Shown here piece by piece: positions 306 through 22,692 of a stretch of 45,377 bases of DNA. The stretch spans positions 1-45,377 of the forward strand of contig JARLHC010000036.1 in NCBI GenBank assembly GCA_031292455.1. Reading direction: 5' to 3'. The stretch comes from Ignavibacteriaceae bacterium. Lineage in GTDB: Bacteria; Bacteroidota; Ignavibacteria; Ignavibacteriales; Ignavibacteriaceae. Below the pieces are notes generated by a model, which searched no databases, had not been told where the DNA came from, and saw nothing but the letters and a program-made list of their open reading frames with translations. The stretch's first letter is position 1; each line of letters starts with the position of its first letter. The position numbers and the translations under genes were made by a program.

Positions 306-2048
306 TTACATTTTAATATTTACACAGCTTCTGAACATTTTCACGCTAGCTAAAAAAGATAACACCAAACTTTTTTCAGACATTGTTCCTTTAAAAAATA
401 AAAGGTTACAATCATTTTTAAGTTCTTCATCCTGGATATAATTTATATTTTCAGAAAAGTAATTATTTATATAGTTCTTAACTTTTGTATTTCGACTATA
501 CCAATAATCATATGGGTGCATCTGTTTCTGAGTATGTAAACCAATATTAAAAATACCAGTCTTTTTTAATATTTTAGGTAGTAGCTGACTAATAGGTATC
601 TTTTTCCCGGATATTTTGATTTTAATAGCCGTGATCTTTGTATTATAATTTTCCCATTTGAATTTAGCAGCTTGAGGATGCTTTTTTAGTATCCATTTAA
701 AATAGATATTGTGATTATTTCTATATTTTAAAGGTATGGTCAGGCAATATTCCATAAAATCCAGGTCATAAAATGGAGAGAAGGATTCAGAATATTCTTG
801 CATTATAGAAGGAGTGCCTAAATTCATTCCAGAGAATCCTCTTGAATAAAAGTTAAATATTTCCTGATTTTTATACCCATGCTTTAATTTAATATCAGGC
901 ACTTTATTTATTAATCTTAATGATGCAGCTTTTCCCAGAATATTTAATTCCTTTTTTCTATTACCAGACGCATATCCGGCACCTACTATAACATCACCTA
1001 ACATCCCTGTATGAATCAAACCAATATTTTCGAAATTAATTAACTCAGTAAATTCGATAAGCTGCCCTAGTGATGTGTATAGAATCATCCCTTCTGAAAT
1101 CTGAGTTGCCTCGTCTATTCTGGTAAGAGATAAACCGTTATCTAAAGTTGTAAACATTAGCTGATTACCTAAATAATTAGCAACACTCTTTGCTATAATT
1201 TCATCAAGATAATTTGATTGGGAGTACGTATAATTTATAATTTTTTCATCTGCCCTTTTTACATCATTTAATACCCATGTGGTCATACGTGAATCTAATC
1301 CACCACTTAGACTAACCATATTGTTATAACCATATTCCCGGTTTTTATTTAAACATTTTGATACTGATTGTTTAAATAATAAATCGATATTTTCAATTAT
1401 TTCATCTTCATTTAGGTCGTTATTTGGCGAATTATTAAATAAATGATATCGATTTGTTGATATTCCTTCCTTACTATATTTTAAATATGTTCCCGCCTCA
1501 AGTTTTTTAACTTCAGTAATAGGAGTAATGTCTTCGAAATAGTATGAATTTGTTAACATCAAATATGCAGCTTCTTTATTTAGGCTAACATGAATCCCCA
1601 TTTCCTTGCAATAACTAAGTATATCTACAATCTTTGAAGAAAAGACAAGTTGTTTATCATCCTTATAATAAAATAATTGCTTATCGCCGATGTGGTCGGT
1701 ATATACAATTAAAATTTCTTTAACTTTATCATAAATAAGTCCACAGAAACTACCTCTGAAATTATTAAAAAATGCCTCTCCAAGATTTTCATACATTATC
1801 TCTAACAGGGCACCCAGTTCTATTCTATTATATTTTATTTTTAACTCTTGTAAATTGAATATAAAACCATCTAAAATAAATATGTAATTATTTGTTTCTT
1901 TGAAGATTTTGTCATTTAAAAATTTATTTAGTGTATGTCTGTGTAAATAAATATTATCTTTTTTGATTTCCTCATTAACTAAATTTTTTTTATCTACCAT
2001 AGAATAAGGTTTATAATCGGTACTTATGAAACCAAAAAATCCGGGCAT
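306..2048 (-). CDS. Asparagine synthetase-like protein lacking the glutaminase cysteine
   Basis: This 580-residue protein has the two-domain plan of class B asparagine synthetases: an N-terminal Ntn-hydrolase-like domain (about 1-200) and a C-terminal ATP-pyrophosphatase domain with the P-loop SGGLDS at 248-253. It begins MPGFFGF where active enzymes begin MCGI.G, so the Cys2 nucleophile that releases ammonia from glutamine is absent, and the usual RGP and RLSIIDL glutamine-site motifs are not recognisable. It probably activates a carboxylate with ATP and joins it to free ammonia or another amine, as beta-lactam synthetase-type relatives do. A second, complete homologue lies at 7135-9150. It is the last biosynthetic gene of the locus, 196 bases after the methyltransferase, and that gap contains a 12-bp palindrome. 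Family membership is firm; the substrate is unknown. Confidence 0.82.
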   Translation of the reverse strand: MPGFFGFISTDYKPYSMVDKKNLVNEEIKKDNIYLHRHTLNKFLNDKIFKETNNYIFILDGFIFNLQELKIKYNRIELGALLEIMYENLGEAFFNNFRGSFCGLIYDKVKEILIVYTDHIGDKQLFYYKDDKQLVFSSKIVDILSYCKEMGIHVSLNKEAAYLMLTNSYYFEDITPITEVKKLEAGTYLKYSKEGISTNRYHLFNNSPNNDLNEDEIIENIDLLFKQSVSKCLNKNREYGYNNMVSLSGGLDSRMTTWVLNDVKRADEKIINYTYSQSNYLDEIIAKSVANYLGNQLMFTTLDNGLSLTRIDEATQISEGMILYTSLGQLIEFTELINFENIGLIHTGMLGDVIVGAGYASGNRKKELNILGKAASLRLINKVPDIKLKHGYKNQEIFNFYSRGFSGMNLGTPSIMQEYSESFSPFYDLDFMEYCLTIPLKYRNNHNIYFKWILKKHPQAAKFKWENYNTKITAIKIKISGKKIPISQLLPKILKKTGIFNIGLHTQKQMHPYDYWYSRNTKVKNYINNYFSENINYIQDEELKNDCNLLFFKGTMSEKSLVLSFLASVKMFRSCVNIKM

Positions 2049-2113
2049 ATCTGTCTCCGTTTAGCTTAATTGGATTAAATATATTTGTATGAGTTATTAA
2101 ATTACTCTAATTG

Positions 2114-2125
2114 ATAAGTACTTAT
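2114..2125. promoter_or_regulatory. 12-bp palindrome in the gap before the second asparagine-synthetase-like gene
   Basis: ATAAGTACTTAT is a perfect 12-bp palindrome about 66 bases upstream of the start at 2048, in a 196-base gap within an otherwise tightly packed gene set. It could be an operator or part of a promoter. In DNA this AT-rich it could also be chance. Confidence 0.2.
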
Positions 2126-2244
2126 ATCGGATTAGCAAAAAATATTTGAACTTTAATGTAATAAATCGCTATATCGTAGGAACAATCTAATATTATTTTT
2201 ATTTTAAGTTAGATGGTCAAATATAGGTGGGAAAATCTTCAAAA

Positions 2245-3114
2245 TTATAATAATGGGATTTTATAGACATGTTTTTTTACTATTTGGTTATCAATAATAC
2301 ATATCCCCATTTGCCTTAAATGAAATGTGATTCTAACTCTATCATTTGATTCAATATACTTCCAGCCCTTTTTCATACTCTCTGACCAGGAAATATTATC
2401 GACTATAAATAATGCCTTTTCTGATACATATGGAATTATCTGATTAAAATTATTTATTGTCGCAGGTCCATCAAGATGTCCGTCAATAAAGACATAATCA
2501 AATGGACCATATTGTTTGAGAACAGTTGGTAATGTATCCTGAAATCTGCCTTCTATAATATCAATATTACCAAGATTGAGTAATTGAAAATTCTTTTTCG
2601 CAATCGAAGCAAGCGAAGCCGCTCCTTCCAGTGTAACCATTCTCCCTATTCCGTTTAGTTTTAGGGCTGCAGCTTGAAATGACGCTGATAACCCCATACA
2701 AGAGCCTAATTCCAAACAGGACTTTGGTTGAAATTTTCTTATAAGTTTGAATAGAATAAACACCCAGAAAAACAACTCACTGCCGCTTTTGCACTTCGCA
2801 CCAACTGTAATATTAACTGTTTTCCCAATCTCCAATTCCTGATTGGTAATATTTGAATCGGGTTCTATAGCTCCATAGTCTATTACTTCTATTTTTTCAT
2901 TTGAGGATTCTAATTCCTTTCGAAGCGATTCTATCTTGCCTATCCATTGTTTTTCTTCTTCAGAAACAATGTTTTGTAAGACTTCAGTTAGTGCATTTCC
3001 AATCTCTTTTGTATAACCTTCAGAGTTTTTACTTAGATCGGATATCTTCTTTTGCGCTTTTAGTCTCCAGACCAAACTAATAATAGGTTTTCCTATCTTT
3101 CTTAAAGATATCAT
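2245..3114 (-). CDS. Class I SAM-dependent methyltransferase
   Basis: The protein has 289 residues. After a polar helical N-terminal stretch (about 1-100) comes a Rossmann methyltransferase core: motif I CLELGSCMGLSA near 133-144, an acidic position TLEG near 161-164, and FDYVFIDGHLDG near 205-216, which resembles the catalytic-metal or motif IV region of O-methyltransferases of the Methyltransf_24 type. It probably methylates a sugar or the small molecule made by the neighbouring ligase and amidotransferase genes. It lies 59 bases downstream of the NadE-like gene on the same strand. Fold assignment is solid from the motifs; the acceptor cannot be read from the sequence. Confidence 0.8.
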   Translation of the reverse strand: MISLRKIGKPIISLVWRLKAQKKISDLSKNSEGYTKEIGNALTEVLQNIVSEEEKQWIGKIESLRKELESSNEKIEVIDYGAIEPDSNITNQELEIGKTVNITVGAKCKSGSELFFWVFILFKLIRKFQPKSCLELGSCMGLSASFQAAALKLNGIGRMVTLEGAASLASIAKKNFQLLNLGNIDIIEGRFQDTLPTVLKQYGPFDYVFIDGHLDGPATINNFNQIIPYVSEKALFIVDNISWSESMKKGWKYIESNDRVRITFHLRQMGICIIDNQIVKKHVYKIPLL

Positions 3115-3173
3115 ATGTATTCTGAAAAAATTATAAAATTAATGAGGTAAGTAATTATTAATTCAGTTTTTAC

Positions 3174-4163
3174 TTAAGATTTCATTATTATTTCAACCGA
3201 ATAGACATCAAGTGCTTCCCTCCTGAGGTATTCTGTTGTACTCATTCTTTTTTTAATGTCTGCTATCACATTCTCAACTTGTTCAACTGATAGTTCTAAA
3301 ACATCAGCAATTTTCTGAGAAGGAACTTCTTTTTCCCATCCGAACCATATTCTGTCCAGAATATCAAAAGGTAGTCTGAAGAAAAATTCCTCCTGAGATT
3401 GGTAAGCACTATAAGTATCTGACGTTGGAATTCGTTTTCTTATTTCATCAGGTATTTCCAGGTAATCTGCTAGTTGATATATCTGAGTTTTGAATAAGTG
3501 TTTAAGAGGTCTGATATCGGACCCGCTATCACCGTATTTTACAAAAAAACCTTGATCATGCTCATTTTTATTCGGAGTACCGATTACTGCATAATTTCTC
3601 TGCTCTGCTAAATAATATAGCATGCTCATCCTGGTCCTTTGTTTAAAGTTTGAAGCAGCAACAATCTGCAGGTATTGTTTTAGTGGAAGCCTCTTCTTTT
3701 TTACTTCACCACTAGGTGAAATAATTTCTAAATAAAAAATATTAAGACTATCAGTTTTCATAATACCCTGCGGCAGAATAATTCTCATTTTATACGTCTT
3801 ATCGTATTCAGGGAATAGTTCTTTTACTGCCTTATCTCTTCTCCTGTAACAACCCAGACCATTAAGCGCATCTGTTATTTCTTCGGTAACACATTCTACA
3901 TTAATTTTCTTAAGTAACTTTTCAACAAAAACGATATTATCGTCGGCCGATTCTTTCTCAGGAAGATTAACAGCAAGTACTCTGTCATTTCCTAAAGCCA
4001 TTGCAGTTAAAGCTAAAGCTACTGAAGAATCCACACCTCCGCTTACTCCTAAGACTGCTCCCTTTTTCTTAAACATATCCTGAACAGAATACTTTATTGC
4101 TTTTACAATTTTGTCAACTTCTTCCTTTGTATTAATCAGAATAGAATTTTTACTAAAGTTCAT
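3174..4163 (-). CDS. NadE-like ATP pyrophosphatase (NAD synthetase family)
   Basis: The protein has 329 residues and is an ammonia-type member of the NAD synthetase family with no glutaminase or nitrilase domain. The P-loop SGGVDSS is at 41-47. Further along, TPNKNEHDQGFF.KYGDSGSDIRPL matches the family signature (GT.NK.E...GY...YGD...DI.PL), followed by KTQIYQLADYL and IP..IR..IP. Family enzymes adenylate nicotinate adenine dinucleotide and amidate it with ammonia. Its place between a class III aminotransferase and a methyltransferase inside a polysaccharide locus suggests a paralogue that amidates another carboxylate, although true NAD synthesis cannot be excluded. It carries a longer middle segment than compact NadE proteins. 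I leave the symbol blank because the substrate is uncertain. Confidence 0.78.
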   Translation of the reverse strand: MNFSKNSILINTKEEVDKIVKAIKYSVQDMFKKKGAVLGVSGGVDSSVALALTAMALGNDRVLAVNLPEKESADDNIVFVEKLLKKINVECVTEEITDALNGLGCYRRRDKAVKELFPEYDKTYKMRIILPQGIMKTDSLNIFYLEIISPSGEVKKKRLPLKQYLQIVAASNFKQRTRMSMLYYLAEQRNYAVIGTPNKNEHDQGFFVKYGDSGSDIRPLKHLFKTQIYQLADYLEIPDEIRKRIPTSDTYSAYQSQEEFFFRLPFDILDRIWFGWEKEVPSQKIADVLELSVEQVENVIADIKKRMSTTEYLRREALDVYSVEIIMKS

Positions 4164-4222
4164 TATTGCCTTAATGATATTTCATTATAATATATATTTA
4201 TTGCAAAAGTATTACTTCATAA

Positions 4223-5494
4223 TCATGGATTACTTTTCATTGTTACATTTTTAGAATGCTGCTTTGCAAGTACTTCTTTAAATCCATTAATAACTCTTAA
4301 TATTTGTTCAGTCGTAATAACAAGAGGGGGCTCAAGCATTATTATATTAGCATTTCCAAACGATTGATAAACTATAATATTCTTTTTAACTAATCCCCTC
4401 ACAATTTCAAATGCAATATTATTATTAATAATTTCTATTCCGAACATCAATCCTATACCACTGAAAGATAATATAATATCCGGATAATTATTCATCATTT
4501 GATTTAGTTGATCAGAAATAATCAATCCCTTTTCTCTAACTGAATTTAAAATATTATTTGATTGAATAAACTTTATTGATTCAATAGCGGTGCGGCATGC
4601 AAGAGAATTACCCCCATAACTTGTAGCTGACATTGGAAAGCTAAGTCCAAACCTTTGCCAAAGATTTTTATTGGTGATAATGGCTCCGACGGGAATTAAA
4701 CCTGCTCCAAGTGATTTCCCAATAACCATTATATCCGGAATTACCTGGAAATAATCTGATGCAAACATATACCCTGTTTTTCCTATTCCGGTAATAACCT
4801 CATCAAATATTAAAATTATATTTTTCTCATCACATAATTTCCGAATTTCTTGTAAATATTTTTTTGATGGTATCCGGATTCCTGCATCATGTTGAATAGG
4901 TTCAATTAATAAAGCACCGACTTCTTTATCATTGAGGCGATTTAATTCTTCAAAGTTATCAAATTCCAGTTGTTCAAAACCTGGGAGCAAAGGTTCATAA
5001 GGTTTTCTAAATGATGCAACTCCTGAAGCTGATAAGGCTCCTAGAGTAAAACCATGAAAGGAGTTCTTCATTGATATTATTTTTTTCTGCCCTTTGTATA
5101 ACCTTACAAGTTTTATAGCACTTTCTATTGCTTCGGACCCGCTGTTAAACAGGTAAGAGCATTCTAATTTATCAGGAGTAATATTTTTTAATAATTCTGC
5201 TAATTCAATCTGGTTTTTATTTATGAATGGCCTGGTATTAACCTCCTTTTTTCTTAATTGATCAATAATTGCCTCAACGATAACGGGATTATTATGTCCA
5301 AGATTCCCCAACCCAAAGCCTGATGTGCAATCTATAAAGATATTACCTTTTGAATCAGTTATCGTAGCCCCTTCTGCTTTAATGCCGGTATTGATTATTC
5401 CTAAATCCAACAGATGATTCATATACCATGAGTTTATTAATTCTCCGTATTTCTCATAGTAATAATTACTTACTGATTCTTGTTTCTCAACCAT
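4223..5494 (-). CDS. Class III PLP-dependent aminotransferase
   Basis: The protein has 423 residues, the usual length for ornithine/acetylornithine-type class III aminotransferases. The PLP phosphate site NSGSEAIE is at 117-124, the cofactor-stacking SFHG at 145-148, the pyridine-binding Asp in IFDEVITG near 229-236, and the Schiff-base lysine in VIGKSLGAG is K260. Enzymes of this class usually move an omega-amino group or aminate a ketone or aldehyde. It lies 18 bases downstream of the AMP-forming ligase and 59 bases upstream of the NadE-like gene, so the three are probably cotranscribed. It may make an amino-acid building block that the ligase activates. It is not of the DegT type that aminates nucleotide sugars. 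Confidence 0.88.
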   Translation of the reverse strand: MVEKQESVSNYYYEKYGELINSWYMNHLLDLGIINTGIKAEGATITDSKGNIFIDCTSGFGLGNLGHNNPVIVEAIIDQLRKKEVNTRPFINKNQIELAELLKNITPDKLECSYLFNSGSEAIESAIKLVRLYKGQKKIISMKNSFHGFTLGALSASGVASFRKPYEPLLPGFEQLEFDNFEELNRLNDKEVGALLIEPIQHDAGIRIPSKKYLQEIRKLCDEKNIILIFDEVITGIGKTGYMFASDYFQVIPDIMVIGKSLGAGLIPVGAIITNKNLWQRFGLSFPMSATSYGGNSLACRTAIESIKFIQSNNILNSVREKGLIISDQLNQMMNNYPDIILSFSGIGLMFGIEIINNNIAFEIVRGLVKKNIIVYQSFGNANIIMLEPPLVITTEQILRVINGFKEVLAKQHSKNVTMKSNP

Positions 5495-5512
5495 TATTAT
5501 TGGGATAAATAT

Positions 5513-7108
5513 TTACTGATTTAATAATTCTTGTTTCAATATTTTTTTATCAATCTTGCCATTAGGACTCTTAGGTAATTCTTTCACAAATTCTATATGC
5601 TTTGGAACCATAAAAGATTCCATATTTTTTGAACAATAAAAAAGGATATCATTAGTTTCAATTTTCCATCCATCTTTTATGACTATAAATGCTTTTATAG
5701 CTTGTCCTAATATTTCATCCGGGACACCTATTACGGCCGATTCAGCTACTCCATTAATTGAGCACAATATGTTTTCTATTTCCTTTGGACTTATACGCTC
5801 ACCCTTTGATTTAATCATATCATCTTTCCTTCCGAGAAAATACAAAAATCCATCATCATCTTTGCGAAATAAATCCCCGGTATATAGCAAAGTTTCCCCC
5901 TGATATATTCCTTTCCTATAAACCTTCTCTGTAAGTTCGGGCGCATTCCAATAACCCCGCATAACATTTGAGCCCCTGACTACTAATTCGCCAACTTCTC
6001 CTGCTGATACTTCTTTACCGCTTTCATCCATGATAAAAACTTCACAATTTGGTATGGCTTTACCTACTGAAGCAGGTCTTTTGCTTATTTCTTCCGGTGG
6101 TAAATATGCTATACGTTTGCATTCTGTTAAACCAAACATTGAATATATTTTAATATGGGGGAATATTTTATTAAATTTTTGAATATGAGGAACAGGAAAT
6201 GCAGCACCTGTATTGCTAATATATCTTAACGAATTCAGTTTATAGTTTTCAATATCTTTCATTTTTAACAATAATGATATTATTGTGGGAACAATTGGAA
6301 ATCCTGTAACTTTTTCATTCTCAATGAGTTCAATAATCTTGATAGGGAACATAAACGATGTTTCCAAAATAAGTGTTCCGCCAAACATTGTACTCATTAA
6401 CATCTGATATAAACCATAATCAAAAGATAAAGGCAGAACTTCAAGTATTATATCATTATTATCGTTTTCCAGATATTCAATGATACTGCGTGCAGCTGAA
6501 ATCATATTGAAATGTGAACTGATAACCCCTTTGGGCTCTCCTGTTGAACCGGAAGTATAAATGAGAGTAGCTAAATCATAATCAATGATTTTATCAAATT
6601 GAATAGAAAGTTTTTTTGACAAACTAATGTTTTGTTGACTAATAAGATCTTCAAAATAAAAATTGGAGATGCTCACAGATATATCGGCAAAATTAGCTCC
6701 TACCAAAATTACTTTTATACCATTAATTTTGTTTAGTAAGGCACTATTCACCACATCATATTTTTGTAAGTCAGCTATAATTATGGTGGCTCCGGAATCC
6801 TTAATTATATATTCTAGTTTATTTGGTTTTATAGACCCATTTAAAACTATGAATACAGCACCGGTCTTTAGTATACCCCAGATTGAAATAATACTTTCTA
6901 TAGAATTATCCAAAAAAATGATCACACGGTCGTGCCGTTGGATCCCTAATTCAATCAATGAGTTAGCGAATTGAGTAGACCTGTCGTTCAATTCGCCATA
7001 GGTCATTCGATGGCTACCAAATACTAATGCCTCTTTGCTGTTATATTTTTCAGCAGTATCTATTAAAAAATTATGTAATAGCCTTGGCTGAAACATTCGT
7101 TTTTTCAT
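5513..7108 (-). CDS. AMP-forming acyl/aminoacyl ligase (adenylation enzyme)
   Basis: The protein has 531 residues and is a full-length ANL-superfamily enzyme. The ATP-binding loop YTSGSTGEPKG is at 184-194, the SMFGLTE region at 323-329, YTGDLFRKDDDG at 409-420, the hinge GRKDDMIKSKGERI at 426-439, and the C-terminal catalytic lysine is in SPNGKID (K518). It would adenylate a carboxylic or amino acid and pass it to a thiol carrier. A free acyl carrier protein lies 2.2 kb upstream in the same transcription direction and is the obvious acceptor. Gene order with asparagine synthetase and ACP recalls the ligase/amidotransferase/ACP sets of exosortase-associated exopolysaccharide loci and also DltA/DltC, but no exosortase and no DltB-like acyltransferase are visible. 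Substrate unknown. Confidence 0.88.
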   Translation of the reverse strand: MKKRMFQPRLLHNFLIDTAEKYNSKEALVFGSHRMTYGELNDRSTQFANSLIELGIQRHDRVIIFLDNSIESIISIWGILKTGAVFIVLNGSIKPNKLEYIIKDSGATIIIADLQKYDVVNSALLNKINGIKVILVGANFADISVSISNFYFEDLISQQNISLSKKLSIQFDKIIDYDLATLIYTSGSTGEPKGVISSHFNMISAARSIIEYLENDNNDIILEVLPLSFDYGLYQMLMSTMFGGTLILETSFMFPIKIIELIENEKVTGFPIVPTIISLLLKMKDIENYKLNSLRYISNTGAAFPVPHIQKFNKIFPHIKIYSMFGLTECKRIAYLPPEEISKRPASVGKAIPNCEVFIMDESGKEVSAGEVGELVVRGSNVMRGYWNAPELTEKVYRKGIYQGETLLYTGDLFRKDDDGFLYFLGRKDDMIKSKGERISPKEIENILCSINGVAESAVIGVPDEILGQAIKAFIVIKDGWKIETNDILFYCSKNMESFMVPKHIEFVKELPKSPNGKIDKKILKQELLNQ

Positions 7109-7134
7109 AAATATAAGAGATTATGTCCCATATT

Positions 7135-9150
7135 TTAGTTATTACTATTTACTTTATTCGAAGACAAATCCAAAGAGGAAGTTGTTCTTCTGTCAATAAC
7201 ATTGTCAAATATGCTAGGATTGATTTTATGAGCATTATAATTTTCGATAAAAGTGTCATAAAATATTTGAGCGGTCAGAATACCAACTAATGCCATATTA
7301 TCAAATTCACTTGATTCCTCTACTCGAGACAATTTTTCTACTATTTTTTTTACCATTATCGGGTTAAACAAATTAAAATCTCTTACTTTTTCATCAGATA
7401 AATAATAATCGACATATTCTAGATTTTTATTTAAAAGACTGTTTTTAATAGGTGCTCTATATGGATGCTTGGGTCTGTTTAAAATGGTTTGCGGCAAAAT
7501 GTCTTTGTACAACTTCTTTAAAATAGATTTTTCGTTTAAGCCTCTGATTTTCAAATATGAAGGAACCTTCCCGATAAACTCAATCAATCTATAATCCAGA
7601 TAAGGCATCCTTATTTCCAAAGAATGAGCCATAGCCACCCTATCGCCCTGTGATGAAAGCAAATAATTCGACATAAATATTTTCATTTCCAGGTATTGTG
7701 CCTTGGACAATGCATCCCATTTGGCAAATTTTTCAGGAAGTAGATCATTTAAATCCAACAAAGGGTCATAATCCTGCATTGAATTATCGATATTTTCACT
7801 GAAAAATCTCTTAATTCTTGCTGTATTGTTCCATCTGATTAAATGTGAAAAGAAAGGATTTTGAGGTTGATCGATTCCCTCTTTGAAAAATGAACTCATG
7901 CTTGCCCTGCTACGAGCATCTTTAAATATATATGGGTACAATTTTTCCAGCAATCGGGGACGAAAAGTTGAGTCAGGATATTTTGCCCAGAAAGCTCTTA
8001 TCAACGTTTCTCTGAAAATATTATAACCGCCAAAAACCTCATCAGCTCCTTCCCCTGTTAATACAACTTTAAAACCCGATTTATTTACTAATTCTGACAA
8101 CATGTACAATGGAACCGGAGAAAGCCGTAATAACGGTATCTCAGTATGCCAAATAACTTCGGGTACTAATTCCCCGATTTTTTTATTTGTCGCTAATATT
8201 TCTTTATGATCAACCTGCAATTTTGAAACCATCTCATGCTGATATTTTCCTTCGTCAAAAGCTTCATCTTCAAATCTAATCCCAAATGTTTTTAATTGAT
8301 TATTAAAATTGTTTTTTACAAAAGAGGTAATTCCTGAAGAATCTAAACCTCCGCTTAAATAACATCCAACCGGAACATCGGCTCTTAACCTGATATCAAT
8401 TGAATCTATAAGCAATTCTTTAGAATATGATGTAATTTCATTTGAGGAATAAGCAATTAAATCATCGTTCAAGGCAAAATTAAAATCCCAGTATTGATTA
8501 ACTGAATATTTGTTTTCTGATATGCTTAAATATGAACCGGCAGGCAGTTCATTTATGTTTTTAAACATTGTCCTACCGGGAAGGGTTGTCCAAAAAGTAA
8601 ATACCTGATTCAGAGAATGATGATTTAGATTGCGATCAACATTCTTATTCGCAAACAAAGCTTTTATTTCAGAACCGAAAAGAAATTGATTATGGCAAAA
8701 AGTATAGTACAACGGCTTTTTACCGACTCTGTCTCTGGCCATAAAAATATTCTTTTTTTTAGAGTCCCATATGGCAAAAGCAAATTGTCCATTGAGTTCA
8801 CAAAGGCAATCTTCTTTTCGATCTTCGTATAAATGAAGAATAATTTCAGTATCTGAATTTGTATAGAGTTTGTGGCCGGAGGCAATTAGCTTATTTCTAA
8901 TTTCGATATAATTATATATCTCACCATTAAAAACAATCCAAAGTGTTTCATCTTCATTATGTATAGGTTGACTTCCTCCTGCTAAATCAATTATACTAAG
9001 TCGGGTCTGGGCAATACCGATCCAATCGTCAATATATATTCCTGACTCATTCGGGCCGCGATGAGTAAGAGTGCCGGCCATTTTACTAAGATCATCAACT
9101 GTAATCGGATGTGGCTCAGTTAGATTTAATATTCCCGCTATTCCACACAT
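7135..9150 (-). CDS. asnB: Asparagine synthetase (glutamine-hydrolysing) family
   Basis: This 671-residue protein is a complete class B amidotransferase. It starts MCGIAGI with the Cys2 nucleophile. RGP (31-33), RLSIIDLAGGSQP (50-62), FNGEIYN (74-80) and the acidic SDTE (99-102) form the glutamine site. The ATP-pyrophosphatase domain carries SGGLDSSG at 266-273, a later GEGADEVFGGYN and the EIRMPYLDYRLIEF segment. The length exceeds E. coli AsnB (about 550) and fits the longer forms found in polysaccharide and natural-product clusters. It may make asparagine or amidate a cluster-specific acid; the position between the ACP and the AMP ligase favours the second. A 206-base gap with an 18-bp near-palindrome precedes it. 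Confidence 0.87.
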   Translation of the reverse strand: MCGIAGILNLTEPHPITVDDLSKMAGTLTHRGPNESGIYIDDWIGIAQTRLSIIDLAGGSQPIHNEDETLWIVFNGEIYNYIEIRNKLIASGHKLYTNSDTEIILHLYEDRKEDCLCELNGQFAFAIWDSKKKNIFMARDRVGKKPLYYTFCHNQFLFGSEIKALFANKNVDRNLNHHSLNQVFTFWTTLPGRTMFKNINELPAGSYLSISENKYSVNQYWDFNFALNDDLIAYSSNEITSYSKELLIDSIDIRLRADVPVGCYLSGGLDSSGITSFVKNNFNNQLKTFGIRFEDEAFDEGKYQHEMVSKLQVDHKEILATNKKIGELVPEVIWHTEIPLLRLSPVPLYMLSELVNKSGFKVVLTGEGADEVFGGYNIFRETLIRAFWAKYPDSTFRPRLLEKLYPYIFKDARSRASMSSFFKEGIDQPQNPFFSHLIRWNNTARIKRFFSENIDNSMQDYDPLLDLNDLLPEKFAKWDALSKAQYLEMKIFMSNYLLSSQGDRVAMAHSLEIRMPYLDYRLIEFIGKVPSYLKIRGLNEKSILKKLYKDILPQTILNRPKHPYRAPIKNSLLNKNLEYVDYYLSDEKVRDFNLFNPIMVKKIVEKLSRVEESSEFDNMALVGILTAQIFYDTFIENYNAHKINPSIFDNVIDRRTTSSLDLSSNKVNSNN

Positions 9151-9265
9151 ATTAAATTAAATAGATATTTCGGATCACTGTGATTGGATACTTGAATTAA
9201 TTATAATGAAAGGTCTAACAGTACTCATTGCTTAAAATTTTCCTTTCTATGCTAATAGCCTGAAA

Positions 9266-9283
9266 TTTTCTAAGCTTGGAAAA
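9266..9283. promoter_or_regulatory. 18-bp near-palindrome between ACP and asparagine synthetase genes
   Basis: TTTTCTAAGCTTGGAAAA is symmetric over 18 bases with one mismatched pair. It sits in the middle of the 206-base gap between the ACP gene and asnB. With no loop and no following T-run it looks more like a protein-binding dyad than a terminator. Function is not established. Confidence 0.25.
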
Positions 9284-9356
9284 ATTGCTGAATATAATTG
9301 ATATAAATCTTTTTGTAGAAATAAAAATAACTATGACCTTTATTATAAATGGTATT

Positions 9357-9617
9357 TTAAATTATCTGCGTTTTTACAGATAATTTTTTCTTAAGATATT
9401 CGTTGACTTTAGTTAACGAAGAAAAATTTTCTTTAATTAATTCATTATCTAGTACGGAAATATTATAGGTTTCTTCTATAAAGGAAACTAATTCAAGTGT
9501 ACCGGTAGAATCAATTATTCCTTTATTAAAAAAATCGGTATCATTTTCCAGCGAATCTTTCTGCCCAAACATAAAATTATTTATAACAAATTCCTTTAAT
9601 TCATCTAAATAATCCAT
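9357..9617 (-). CDS. Free-standing acyl (or aminoacyl) carrier protein
   Basis: This 86-residue acidic protein has the four-helix carrier-protein pattern. The phosphopantetheine attachment serine is in GIIDSTGTLELV (S37), preceded by the FFNKGIIDS loop and followed by helix II LELVSFIEETYNI. The length and position of the serine fit ACP/DltC-like carriers. DST instead of the DSL usual for fatty-acid ACPs suggests a specialised carrier rather than the household AcpP. It is probably the acceptor for the AMP-forming ligase at 5513-7108. Neighbours are a hexapeptide acyltransferase upstream (53 bases) and asparagine synthetase downstream, so the loaded acyl group may be amidated while attached or transferred to a sugar. 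Confidence 0.85.
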   Translation of the reverse strand: MDYLDELKEFVINNFMFGQKDSLENDTDFFNKGIIDSTGTLELVSFIEETYNISVLDNELIKENFSSLTKVNEYLKKKLSVKTQII

Positions 9618-9670: not shown

Positions 9671-10264
9671 CTAAGTAATCGTCCATAGAAAATGACCTAC
9701 TGAACCTTTAACATATAATGGACCTTCATCTAGAATTTTTTTAATATTCATCTTAAATTCATCATTAGGAGAAGTAAATTTTTCAGAATTATATGATGGC
9801 CTTACTTTAATCAATTCCTTATGCATTTGTATAAATTCATCAAATTTAGAATATACACGTGCCGGAACCCCCGCCACACATGAATTTGGAGGTATATTTT
9901 TATTAACCACTGATCCGGCAGCAATTAAAACATTTGGTCCTATTTCAACCCCAGGTAGTATAATTGCGTTGGAACCTATATAACAATTATTTTTAATAAC
10001 TACTTTACCCAATCTTGTAAATCCATTAGTAAATTTATAAGTTGATGCATCATGTGCAAGAACTATAACTCCATTGCTTAAAGAGCAATTATCACCGATA
10101 CTAATTAGAAACGAATACCGCGGATCTATATATGCACCAGGCATAATAGTCACGTTTCGACCTAACGATAGTCCATTAGCAATACAATTATTTACCTTCC
10201 GTTTATAATTAATATATTTGTATTTATCACTTATCGAAAGTATTATCTTTAAAATTATGTTCAT
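9671..10264 (-). CDS. Left-handed beta-helix (hexapeptide) O-acetyltransferase
   Basis: The protein has 197 residues and shows hexapeptide repeats: SIGDNCSLSNGVIVLAHD, VVIKNNCYIGSNAIILPG, VEIGPNVLIAAGSVVNKN, ending with the typical VAGVPARVYSKF. A histidine in VLAHD is in the position of the catalytic base of maltose/galactoside acetyltransferases. It would move an acetyl or other acyl group from CoA, or possibly from the ACP encoded next, to a sugar hydroxyl. The C-terminal 50 residues go beyond the repeats and have no motif I recognise. It lies in the minus-strand polysaccharide operon between the SGNH-like gene and the ACP gene. Confidence 0.82.
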   Translation of the reverse strand: MNIILKIILSISDKYKYINYKRKVNNCIANGLSLGRNVTIMPGAYIDPRYSFLISIGDNCSLSNGVIVLAHDASTYKFTNGFTRLGKVVIKNNCYIGSNAIILPGVEIGPNVLIAAGSVVNKNIPPNSCVAGVPARVYSKFDEFIQMHKELIKVRPSYNSEKFTSPNDEFKMNIKKILDEGPLYVKGSVGHFLWTIT

Positions 10265-13380: not shown

Positions 13381-14076
13381 TTAGGTCCTCATTAATTCTG
13401 CATTTTCCAAAATATATTTCAATTCATTATATAGCAGATTATTAGTAATAATATTTTCAACGTGAATAAGAAGAACTAAATCACGTAATTTAGACTCCCT
13501 AATTAACCAATTTATATCAAAAGATTTTGTGTCGCGCCAATGATGTTCTAGCCAAAATGCGGCAGGATAAAACATGAGCCTTTGATTTGTTATTGAAAAA
13601 TCAATAGTAGGGTCTTCTAAATTTCCAAAGAAAATTTTCATTCCCAATTTAGAACCCCAATCAAGGTATTTCGTTGGCTCATAAGAAGGGAAGTGATGTA
13701 AACCATATTTGAATTTTCCTGATCCATGTTTTGAGAACACTTCAATTTTTGAATTAATATTGCTTTCTAAAAACTTTAATTCCTCTTTAAAGCTATCGAG
13801 TGAAATTGAATTTTCAAGATGAAGTCCAATAATGTGATTACCTTGCCGTAAATGGTCCAATATAATATTGGTCGGTAATGTACATTTTCTAAAGAAAAAA
13901 TTTCCTTGTATTGATTTACTATTTAAATAAATAATAAAATCATCTAAATATTTTAAATAAGGCAAGAATAAAAGTGGTGTTATATTATAATCGGATGCTA
14001 TTCGACTGCATATGTGATTAAAGACATTTTCCTTCCCATATGGGCTGTCAACATCGATTCTTAAAATAAGTGACAT
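13381..14076 (-). CDS. Divergent polysaccharide-deacetylase-fold protein
   Basis: The 231-residue protein starts ILRIDVDSPYGK, with Asp8 and Asp10 at the first strand as in NodB-fold deacetylases. It later shows QGNFFFR (the ATFF-like second strand), a GNHIIGLHLENS segment and VFSKHGSG. A canonical H-(S/T)-x-x-H zinc motif is not obvious; the two histidines in NHIIGLH have different spacing. I place it tentatively with the WbmS-like group of NodB-fold proteins found in O-antigen clusters. It follows a GT2 gene by 14 bases and so belongs to the same transcript. A deacetylase role is possible, but the altered metal site leaves it open. Confidence 0.5.
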   Translation of the reverse strand: MSLILRIDVDSPYGKENVFNHICSRIASDYNITPLLFLPYLKYLDDFIIYLNSKSIQGNFFFRKCTLPTNIILDHLRQGNHIIGLHLENSISLDSFKEELKFLESNINSKIEVFSKHGSGKFKYGLHHFPSYEPTKYLDWGSKLGMKIFFGNLEDPTIDFSITNQRLMFYPAAFWLEHHWRDTKSFDINWLIRESKLRDLVLLIHVENIITNNLLYNELKYILENAELMRT

Positions 14077-16288: not shown

Positions 16289-17755
16289 TTATTTCAAATT
16301 TTGGAACATTCTGACTGCTTTTTTAATTGGTCTCATAATGAATACTTTTTTTTCTTCAAGAATTATTCTATAATGTTCAAGATTTGGACTTGGAAAATGA
16401 AACATAACTTCTGAAAGTGAATGCAACCTTTTATTCTGTTTAATACCGTCAATATATTGAACTTTACCAATTAAGGTGCAACCTTTCATATATTTCCCTG
16501 AAATTTTAATTTGTTCTGAAGATTTATCTCCCTTTGAATTTCTATTTTCGTTATGATCTGAAAAACTGGTGTCAATGATAAATAGATTGCCACGGCCTAT
16601 TTGATTAGACCATCTTTTAATTTCCACTGGAGAAACATGGTGCTTTGTCATTTCAAACATAGATTTATCAAGCGATTCGATATTTGCTTCTGTATTTTGA
16701 AAGTTAACAATATAGGTCGCTCCAATCTTTCCTAGTTTTTTAATACAATCAGCAAGATGATCCGGCTGAAATAGGTATTCAATATTACTAGTGCAAATTA
16801 TTAAATCAACAGAATTCAATTGTAATTTCGGATCCAGTATCTCTTCCTTATTTAAAATAAAACAGCAAATTGATTCATCATCTAAGAATTTATTTGATTC
16901 AATAATTAAGTATCTATTTCTCTTTGCTATTTCTTTAATAAATAACGGCATTTCTTCGTACCAATAACAAATAATAGCAATAATATTATTATTTAACTTC
17001 ATCATTTCTTTTGTAACAATTTTTTCATAGTTATGTTCTAGGCATTGTTTATTTGTATCACTTTGGTTATTCTTTGACAGATATTTTGACATTGAAGCCC
17101 TTCTGTATAAATCTGCTGCCTCAGAAAAATTTACTAAAGGAACTCGACTTTCTACAGCAATTTGTAGAATTTTTTCCCACGCTTGTAAAATTTCTTCCGG
17201 GTTGAAACTAGCTACGAAATCGTGAAGTCCAAATGCAATATAAGCACGACTTTTCATCAATTTTGAGAACTTTTGGACCCATTCTGTGGAAGTTAGATTA
17301 CCTTCGTGTAATGGCCAATCATCAGCTGTTATCGGAAGTCGGACTAATCCTTTATAAATATAATAGGGCTCTGAATGTTTATCAGATTCTGCAGTCCAAA
17401 GAAACCCTTCGTCCCAAATAGTTTGCACTGCACTTTGAGAAATTTGTGATCTTGGGGATCGATACCCTTTAGGAATCGGGGAAACTTTCCTACATAATGC
17501 AATTTCATTTGAATAATATTCTGGCTTCCAATCAGGATAATGATTAAAAGAATGGAAAGCGATTTCTTGCCTTTCTGCTAAAATATAGTCGATTAAATCC
17601 GGTTGTTCTATAAATAATTTCCCTACAATATTATATGTAGCATGTATATTATATTTTTTCTCCAACTTAAGAAATTCATATACCATCTTTCGACATTCCT
17701 CTGGCTTGGCATGGCTATCATAGTTTTGTTCTATGTCATGATAAAAAGTAATCAT
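16289..17755 (-). CDS. Polysaccharide deacetylase domain fused to a degenerate methyltransferase-like domain
   Basis: The protein has 488 residues, far longer than a single NodB domain. Residues 1-225 are a deacetylase: YHDIEQ (Asp7) at the first strand, HATYNIVG, AFHSFNH with the zinc histidines, YRSPRSQIS and FGLHDF at the end. Residues about 260-480 alternate strand and helix in a Rossmann-like way (IIAIICYW, YLIIESN, VDLIICTSNIEYL, GATYIVNFQN, GNLFIIDTSF) and recall a class I methyltransferase, but no glycine-rich SAM loop is present. The second part may be a non-catalytic binding domain. It belongs to the glycosyltransferase section of the locus and probably trims acetyl groups from sugars of the repeat unit or polymer. 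Confidence 0.7.
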   Translation of the reverse strand: MITFYHDIEQNYDSHAKPEECRKMVYEFLKLEKKYNIHATYNIVGKLFIEQPDLIDYILAERQEIAFHSFNHYPDWKPEYYSNEIALCRKVSPIPKGYRSPRSQISQSAVQTIWDEGFLWTAESDKHSEPYYIYKGLVRLPITADDWPLHEGNLTSTEWVQKFSKLMKSRAYIAFGLHDFVASFNPEEILQAWEKILQIAVESRVPLVNFSEAADLYRRASMSKYLSKNNQSDTNKQCLEHNYEKIVTKEMMKLNNNIIAIICYWYEEMPLFIKEIAKRNRYLIIESNKFLDDESICCFILNKEEILDPKLQLNSVDLIICTSNIEYLFQPDHLADCIKKLGKIGATYIVNFQNTEANIESLDKSMFEMTKHHVSPVEIKRWSNQIGRGNLFIIDTSFSDHNENRNSKGDKSSEQIKISGKYMKGCTLIGKVQYIDGIKQNKRLHSLSEVMFHFPSPNLEHYRIILEEKKVFIMRPIKKAVRMFQNLK

Positions 17756-22002: not shown

Positions 22003-22692
22003 CTAATAAATACCATTAATTGGAAGTTGAGAAAATAAATGAGGAGATATTCTTGTGCTCTGTAGAAAACTTTCTAATCCTTTTACGGTTATATCCCCCG
22101 AAAAAGTTCCAGGGCGTCTGCCGTCATGTAATAAAATGATTTTCCCTGATTGAATTTGATCTTTTAATAAAGTAGATAATTTTGTTGATTCATTTTGATT
22201 ATAATCTTTGGGATCAAGATTCCAATGAATAAAGGTCAACCGGTTAATCAATATATATATTAGACTGAATAAATTTAATTTACCATATGGAGGGCGGACA
22301 TAAATAGCTCTAATTCCATATTTCTTAAGAATTTTGTTTCCATTATATAAATCTGACATACCTTTCCAGGGTAATATTTTCCACGGATGTAAATGATTTT
22401 CACCATGTATACCAATTGTATGACCTTCCATTAATATTCTTTGAGTAAGCGCTGGATTTTGTTCCACGTTTACACCCAGCACAAAAAAAGTAGCCCGTAT
22501 ATTATGTGTTTTAAGAAAATCTAATATCTGTCCCGTCGTTGATATTTCGGGTCCGTCATCAAAAGTAAGAAATATTTTTCCGGAATCACTGACCCACTTT
22601 AATAACTGTCTCCTCCAGAACTTCTTAACTAAATGCGGAAGTATATAATTAAGAAAAAATATTATAAAAACGAATAGTATTAATAAAATCAT
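22003..22692 (-). CDS. NodB-type polysaccharide deacetylase, membrane-anchored
   Basis: The 229-residue protein has an N-terminal membrane segment (about 2-19) and then a complete NodB domain. Motif 1 TFDDGP is at 43-48, ATFFVLG at 67-73, motif 2 HGENH (H96, H100) supplies the zinc ligands, motif 3 is RPPYGK, motif 4 WNLDPKDY and motif 5 ILLHDG. All catalytic positions are present, so it should be an active metal-dependent N- or O-deacetylase acting at the membrane or in the periplasm. It sits 13 bases after the Wzz/BY-kinase gene, as in many exopolysaccharide loci where deacetylation tunes adhesion of the polymer. Confidence 0.92.
   Translation of the reverse strand: MILLILFVFIIFFLNYILPHLVKKFWRRQLLKWVSDSGKIFLTFDDGPEISTTGQILDFLKTHNIRATFFVLGVNVEQNPALTQRILMEGHTIGIHGENHLHPWKILPWKGMSDLYNGNKILKKYGIRAIYVRPPYGKLNLFSLIYILINRLTFIHWNLDPKDYNQNESTKLSTLLKDQIQSGKIILLHDGRRPGTFSGDITVKGLESFLQSTRISPHLFSQLPINGIY

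Follow-up and report, generated by a model that had tools for sequence, protein, structure and literature searches.

A recurring four-gene cassette of a carrier protein, an AMP-forming ligase, AsnB and a NadE-like protein, and its possible role in amide-bearing substituents of bacterial surface glycans

Freestanding ligases that serve a freestanding acyl carrier protein (ACP) are known from the vicenistatin system VinN/VinL/VinO, and from BolO/BolC/BolN and AfcQ/AfcP. Passages in three sources (PMC7756342, PMC12186527, PMC11253843) describe how VinN loads (3-methyl)aspartate through its beta-carboxylate onto the free ACP, and how a pyridoxal phosphate (PLP) enzyme of such systems, AfcP being named as one, decarboxylates the loaded aspartate. 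The window analysed here, i.e., the whole 45,377-nucleotide stretch of Ignavibacteriaceae DNA, holds a similar pair: a freestanding ligase with the same Asp and Lys-Arg on a short loop and with a similar bulky aromatic residue, and a freestanding ACP. Where the VinN-type systems have their PLP decarboxylase, however, the window has an AsnB-type amidotransferase and a NadE-like ATP pyrophosphatase, with glycan genes around them. These four genes recur together across phyla and, judged by their neighbourhoods, very probably form a functional module. That this quartet supplies an acyl-ACP donor appears likely. The best overall explanation is that the four proteins would build an acyl-ACP donor for glycan modification, amidated by AsnB or the NadE-like protein; we regard the chances for and against this explanation as evenly balanced.

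A conserved four-gene core

The relatives compared include 80 loci from a GTDB scan, and since these are the best 80 of at least 587 candidates, the co-occurrence describes the nearer relatives. In total, 96 sequences with a NadE-like match (95 loci and the window) were considered. Exclusion of 36 of them for short flanks, the window included, leaves 60 loci that extend 4 kb or more to either side of the NadE-like gene, in which partners were counted within 6 kb by profiles derived from the same loci. The 60 loci include two S. meliloti strains; loci L021 and L082, which are one contig, fall outside the 60 and both inside the 96.

The NadE-like gene is accompanied by AsnB in 55/60 loci, by a ligase in 54/60, by an ACP in 55/60 and by all three in 48/60. 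Across all 96 sequences, the corresponding figures are 80, 81, 77 and 64. Clustering of open reading frames (ORFs) in 94 sequences places AsnB in 74, the ligase in 73 and the ACP in 57, and the next neighbour families, the hexapeptide protein and Wzc, each follow at 15/94. The full quartet lies on one strand in 61 of the 64 sequences having all four genes, in 11 different gene orders. An arrangement this variable argues for a common function rather than for a gene order passed on by descent. Mirror-tree correlations (Pearson 0.43 to 0.52) are too even to single out protein pairs. An earlier note on this DNA had taken the ligase and ACP for a thioester-loading pair standing beside ATP-dependent nitrogen-transfer enzymes; this is supported, and two such enzymes, AsnB1 and the NadE-like protein, are indeed present.

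The NadE-like protein occurs in 12/296 genomes of the phylum, the source genome included, as well as in 116 plasmid records, of which Sinorhizobium accounts for 76; at 1e-20, no match was found among 50,697 phage records. Titles of the kept loci name Bacteroidota, Ignavibacteria, Chloroflexota, Zixibacteria, Cyanobacteria, Acidobacteria, Planctomycetes, Armatimonadetes and Proteobacteria. A ligase search of the same 296 genomes at E ≤ 1e-85, a cut-off that excludes distant classes, with four candidates scored per genome, detects the ligase in four genomes, the source genome among them, and always at 2.4 kb or less from a NadE-like gene. At this cut-off, 8 of the 11 other genomes bearing the NadE-like protein show no ligase. 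On pSymB of S. meliloti AK57 (CP130047.1, locus L106), the quartet lies near minCDE and is apparently broken, with the ligase in two frames and an AsnB fragment. In S. meliloti AK76 (L109), unlike in AK57, AsnB, ACP and a ligase of class I (defined below) are detected.

The window is the entire contig C57 of a 3.36 Mb genome in 171 contigs (97% complete). Seven genes follow each other on its minus strand from 9617 down to 306, beyond a Wza/Wzc-type polysaccharide locus, separated from the ACP downward by 206, 26, 18, 59, 59 and 196 bases; the block is possibly cut, because its end sits 305 bases from the contig end. The features discussed here are the following.

9357 to 9617, minus strand: freestanding ACP (core), 86 residues, DS at residues 36-37
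7135 to 9150, minus strand: AsnB1, glutamine-dependent amidotransferase (core), TIGR01536, with Cys2 and SGGLDS
5513 to 7108, minus strand: VinN-type AMP-forming ligase of class I (core), with VinN-like pocket residues
4223 to 5494, minus strand: class III aminotransferase (accessory, non-core), putrescine/acetylornithine aminotransferase family
3174 to 4163, minus strand: NadE-like ATP pyrophosphatase (core), NF002048
2245 to 3114, minus strand: methyltransferase (local, non-core), PF13578
306 to 2048, minus strand: AsnB2 without Cys2 (local, non-core), starting MPGFFG and retaining SGGLDS at residue 248
9671 to 10264, minus strand: hexapeptide acyltransferase, candidate transferase of the pathway, PF00132
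10360 to 11202, minus strand: SGNH-like ORF, possible periplasmic partner, no Pfam match

ORFs and domains confirm the seven genes in the order named in the earlier note, with a complete AsnB1 and a second AsnB lacking Cys2. Co-occurrence across genomes holds for ACP, AsnB, ligase and NadE-like gene and fails for the other three. The aminotransferase recurs in 1/95 related loci (L026, in the same slot between ligase and NadE-like gene), a homologue of the methyltransferase was not found as best match in these 95 loci, and none of them has an AsnB2-type ORF. A single seven-gene module was therefore rejected, as only the four core genes recur.

Upstream of the ACP, on the same strand, lie the hexapeptide acyltransferase, the SGNH-like ORF, glycosyltransferases, Wzx, Wzc and Wza, in agreement with the polysaccharide context claimed before. 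The SGNH-like ORF has a hydrophobic N-terminus and the motifs GHQSVG and DDGGHLN; homologues occur in 6/95 related loci, some adjoining the hexapeptide protein. The window locus also contains three polysaccharide-deacetylase-like ORFs (13381-14076, 16289-17755 and 22003-22692). PF01522 matches one of them strongly and another at the cut-off; the remaining one has no Pfam match and looks similar by eye.

Substrate pocket of the ligase

Among PDB sequences, the substrate half of the ligase matches VinN best (3wv4, 3wvn; 4e-17), with the next kind of protein following at 5e-11. The AlphaFold model of the ligase (predicted local distance difference test score, pLDDT, 89) likewise has VinN at the top of its structural list, with a Z-score of 50.5, a root-mean-square deviation of 1.7 over 369 residues and 34% identity. 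In a gapless alignment, SFDYGLY, SNTG and LTECKRI of the window ligase face SWDFGLY, TNSA and QTECKRI of VinN. An offset of 16, which suits four residues simultaneously, underlies the numbering used for VinN; on this basis, D230, Y231, T300, K331 and R332 of the window ligase correspond to D230, F231, S299, K330 and R331 as taken for VinN. The conservation analysis of ligase and ACP uses what we take to be GrsA numbering. The Asp for the amino group is thus present in both proteins, and both carry Lys-Arg on the shortened loop within ECKRI; Tyr for Phe and Thr for Ser are similar, not identical, replacements.

The function of these residues is described in passages on VinN, where D230 binds the amine, S299 and R331 bind the alpha-carboxylate and the beta-carboxylate is activated, and AfcQ, which has the same Arg, accepts L-Asp (PMC7756342, PMC12186527, PMC11253843). 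The loop with K330-R331 is given in a passage of PMC11253843 as one residue shorter than in adenylation domains for alpha-amino acids. The ligases found near NadE-like genes fall into classes along the same lines. The Asp is carried by 29 of 81, referred to as class I, and all 29 have the short loop with Lys-Arg. In ligases outside class I, Lys precedes the Arg in 0 of 44 readable cases, and the loop is longer in 38 of 44. The pocket Arg itself is found in 74/74 ligases having a residue at this position, one of which (L050) is another kind of ligase and is excluded from the class counts. Asp, short loop and Lys-Arg together therefore predict aspartate for class I, the window included, and a diacid without that amine for the others. 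For the window ligase, these residues moderately favour aspartate as the substrate. Judged by its pocket, the ligase is other than the plain fatty acyl-CoA ligase that the earlier note had allowed for.

The ACP has no Pfam match, and NCBIfam carrier-protein models match it below their cut-offs. AsnB1 starts with MCGIAG, so that the glutaminase Cys2 is present, contains the synthetase pyrophosphatase (PP) motif SGGLDS, and reaches 507 bits with TIGR01536 (cut-off 267). Proteins of the AsnB1 type have a conserved R.KqpYRAP where E. coli AsnB reads RQKEQFSDG.

The NadE-like protein, amidation and transfer

The NadE-like protein scores 427 bits with NF002048 (cut-off 313), and its AlphaFold model (pLDDT 94) adopts the NadE fold, with Z-scores of 28 to 1xng, 2e18 and the nicotinamide mononucleotide (NMN) synthetase 3fiu. 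It retains the PP-loop residues as well as N172, R176 and R178 of canonical NadE, which we take to lie at the site for nicotinic acid adenine dinucleotide (NaAD). Its distinguishing marks are an altered PTTDTY motif and an insert in which Y106 is invariant and R109 and I128 are almost so. In a quick tree with 10 canonical NadEs (from 11 loci; L115, which yielded no reading frame, was left out), the NadE-like sequences occupy one side of a branch with a Shimodaira-Hasegawa-like approximate likelihood ratio of 100, subject to a long-branch warning; the nearest relatives of the window protein are L026 (an Ignavibacteriales metagenome-assembled genome, MAG, 77%) and L027 (a Bacteroidetes MAG).

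All 12 genomes with the NadE-like protein hold another NadE-family gene; 11 of these genes reach at least 240 bits, and that of G109 scores 102. It is therefore improbable that the genome relies on the NadE-like protein as its NAD enzyme. NCBIfam NF002048 nevertheless labels these proteins NAD(+) synthase. A third NadE of Azospirillum brasilense, without glutaminase domain, is described in a passage of PMC7646526 as detected in cell extracts and not bound by GlnZ; it may be the present NadE-like protein. Mapped on the NadE-like tree, ligase class switches 8 times over 58 labelled rows, against a mean of 16.8 in 300 shuffles; ligase class and NadE-like phylogeny are thus linked, yet frequently switched.

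Acyltransferases of five kinds are found in 30/60 loci, a hexapeptide acyltransferase lies within 5 kb in 14/60, and glycan genes are present in 31/60. Varied transferases around a constant quartet fit a common acyl-ACP donor. MBOAT proteins occur in cassettes L061, L063, L072, L075 and L101, and a methyltransferase family is common to some of these (L061, L063, L075 and L101); L061 also has a SnoaL-like protein. Concerning the group to be transferred, aspart-4-yl groups on amino sugars are chemically known: a reference title cited in PMC10609480 names, for Providencia stuartii O33, a 4-amino sugar bearing a beta-linked aspartyl (aspart-4-yl).

Taken together, the predicted pathway would proceed in three steps. 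The ligase, going by its pocket residues, would take L-aspartate, or a closely similar acid, and adenylate its beta-carboxylate, with R332 and K331 holding the alpha-carboxylate and D230 the alpha-amine, to end in a beta-aspartyl thioester on the ACP. The free alpha-carboxylate is the obvious target for amidation, and AsnB and the NadE-like protein, either of which could be the amidating enzyme, may act on it to give an alpha-amide (isoasparaginyl), in place of the PLP decarboxylase. No VinO/BtrK-type PLP decarboxylase is found among the scanned window ORFs, and the sole PF02784 gene of the genome is on contig C95. The last step would be transfer of the group to a sugar amine or hydroxyl by an acyltransferase, in the window probably the hexapeptide protein. 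Amidation may also follow transfer, because, with an alpha-amide beside the beta-thioester, the group could be lost from the carrier by cyclisation to an aminosuccinimide. The other ligase classes would probably use an acid without alpha-amine, with the second carboxylate kept. That the quartet yields an amidated aspartyl on a glycan can be put forward only tentatively, at rather less than an even chance. We are slightly more doubtful of the broadest form of the proposal, in which a cassette spread across phyla would use enzymes of the NadE and AsnB folds to amidate an ACP-held diacid, and a beta-linked isoasparaginyl group (a diacid monoamide in other classes) would be placed onto surface glycans.

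Several observations weigh against a glycan-directed donor made by all four proteins. A partner is missing within 6 kb in 12/60 loci, among them the second nearest relative by NadE (L027), which lacks the ligase. With the few query proteins used, neither an acyltransferase nor a glycan gene is recognised in 18/60 loci. Among PDB sequences, the full-length ligase matches linear gramicidin synthase best (1.5e-97, compared with 8e-76 for VinN), the structural Z-score of VinN ties with other ligases to within 1, and S299 of VinN is replaced by Thr. The ACP sequences show little conservation (mean identity 0.335), and the decarboxylase test, with 0 matches in 95 loci, used one query, the PF02784 gene of the genome. 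The NadE-like protein pairs with both kinds of ligase and therefore need not touch the ligase product, and two amide-forming enzymes are one too many for a single free carboxylate.

The 18 loci without recognised glycan gene or acyltransferase would be accommodated if the quartet made, instead of a glycan substituent, a small beta-aspartyl- or diacid-derived metabolite, soluble or lipid-linked, and the glycan context of the window were incidental. VinN, BolO and AfcQ indeed serve vicenistatin and lipopeptides, according to passages of PMC7756342 and PMC12186527. The glycan genes and acyltransferases in about half of the 60 loci, and the position of the window block within an exopolysaccharide-type locus, make this product unlikely, though it fares best among the alternatives.

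Somewhat less probable is a division of labour in which the NadE-like protein amidates a nucleotide-linked uronate (e.g., uridine diphosphate-hexuronate to the uronamide), with ligase, ACP and AsnB producing an acyl group of their own for the same sugar. Such a substrate is laid out like NaAD, whose presumed binding residues are shared with canonical NadE. Passages of PMC10609480 report primary uronamides in O-antigens. The retention of the NadE-like protein with ligase, ACP and AsnB in 48/60 loci suggests one pathway, however, and the insert and altered PTTDTY motif indicate a changed pocket without pointing to a uronate.

The joint retention of two nitrogen-transfer enzymes would also be explained by two-step amidine or nitrile chemistry, with AsnB making an amide and the NadE-like protein activating it with ATP to give an amidino or cyano acyl group. 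GMP synthase and QueC, which have related folds, provide the precedent for such ATP activation, and the NadE-like model resembles GMP synthase in structure (Z about 16). Acetimidoyl groups on glycans are reported in passages of PMC10609480. We consider this chemistry improbable, as the residues give no sign of amide activation. Moreover, the characterised NadE relatives known to us (NMN and NAD synthetases) activate carboxylates. A spare NAD synthase grouped by chance with a fatty acyl-CoA synthetase, as the name of NF002048 and the retained PP-loop could suggest, is hardly credible given the conserved neighbourhood and VinN-like pocket, and NAD synthesis was rejected as the likely role in view of the second NadE-family gene and the separate tree side.

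Comparison with described systems

No description of the quartet was found in the literature searched, a weak negative, since subscription literature lay largely outside the search. If the glycan-directed amidation proposed above is true, a NadE-fold enzyme would act on a substrate held by a carrier protein, and glycan substituents of the aspart-4-yl type would have a biosynthetic route. More generally, the proposal offers a route, open to testing, by which bacterial surface glycans could acquire amino-acid and diacid-amide substituents. Many genes named NAD(+) synthase through NF002048 are suggested to do something else, and the acid could be predicted from the ligase sequence by its signature (Asp, short loop and Lys-Arg versus the rest). 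The cassette is present in cultured Sinorhizobium, Azospirillum, Shinella, Winogradskyella and Geothrix, which makes these proposals testable.

Beyond the VinN-type systems, the locus resembles XrtA/PEP-CTERM loci, whose ligase model TIGR03098 is the best NCBIfam match of the window ligase and whose amidotransferase model TIGR03108 is the second of AsnB1. Both matches stay under the cut-offs, however (473 of 592 and 447 of 817 bits), and PF09721 has 0 matches across the 97% complete source genome. An exosortase A/PEP-CTERM locus was rejected on these grounds, and the absence of an exosortase stated in the earlier note stands.

Dlt D-alanylation shares the principle of a ligase and a carrier feeding an acyltransferase, and some relatives of the quartet have an MBOAT protein. 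The window ACP, in contrast, remains below the DltC cut-offs (TIGR01688, 20 of 52 bits; NF003464, 28 of 68 bits), and no DltB-type MBOAT is seen among the scanned window ORFs. The earlier remark that DltB is missing thus applies to these ORFs, but not to several related cassettes. We know of no counterpart of AsnB or the NadE-like protein in the Dlt system.

For the NadE-like protein, the Francisella NMN synthetase (3fiu; Z 28.1) is, according to passages of PMC3376133, a NadE homologue with a changed substrate. It is still a pyridine nucleotide enzyme, however, and with 238 residues in the structure, a counterpart of the NadE-like insert is not expected. To our knowledge, it has no ACP-ligase context. 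Glutarimide polyketide systems, in which we know of no NadE-like partner, offer the parallel for AsnB: there, in a polyketide synthase context, AsnB-type amidotransferases act on ACP-bound malonate with a free ACP.

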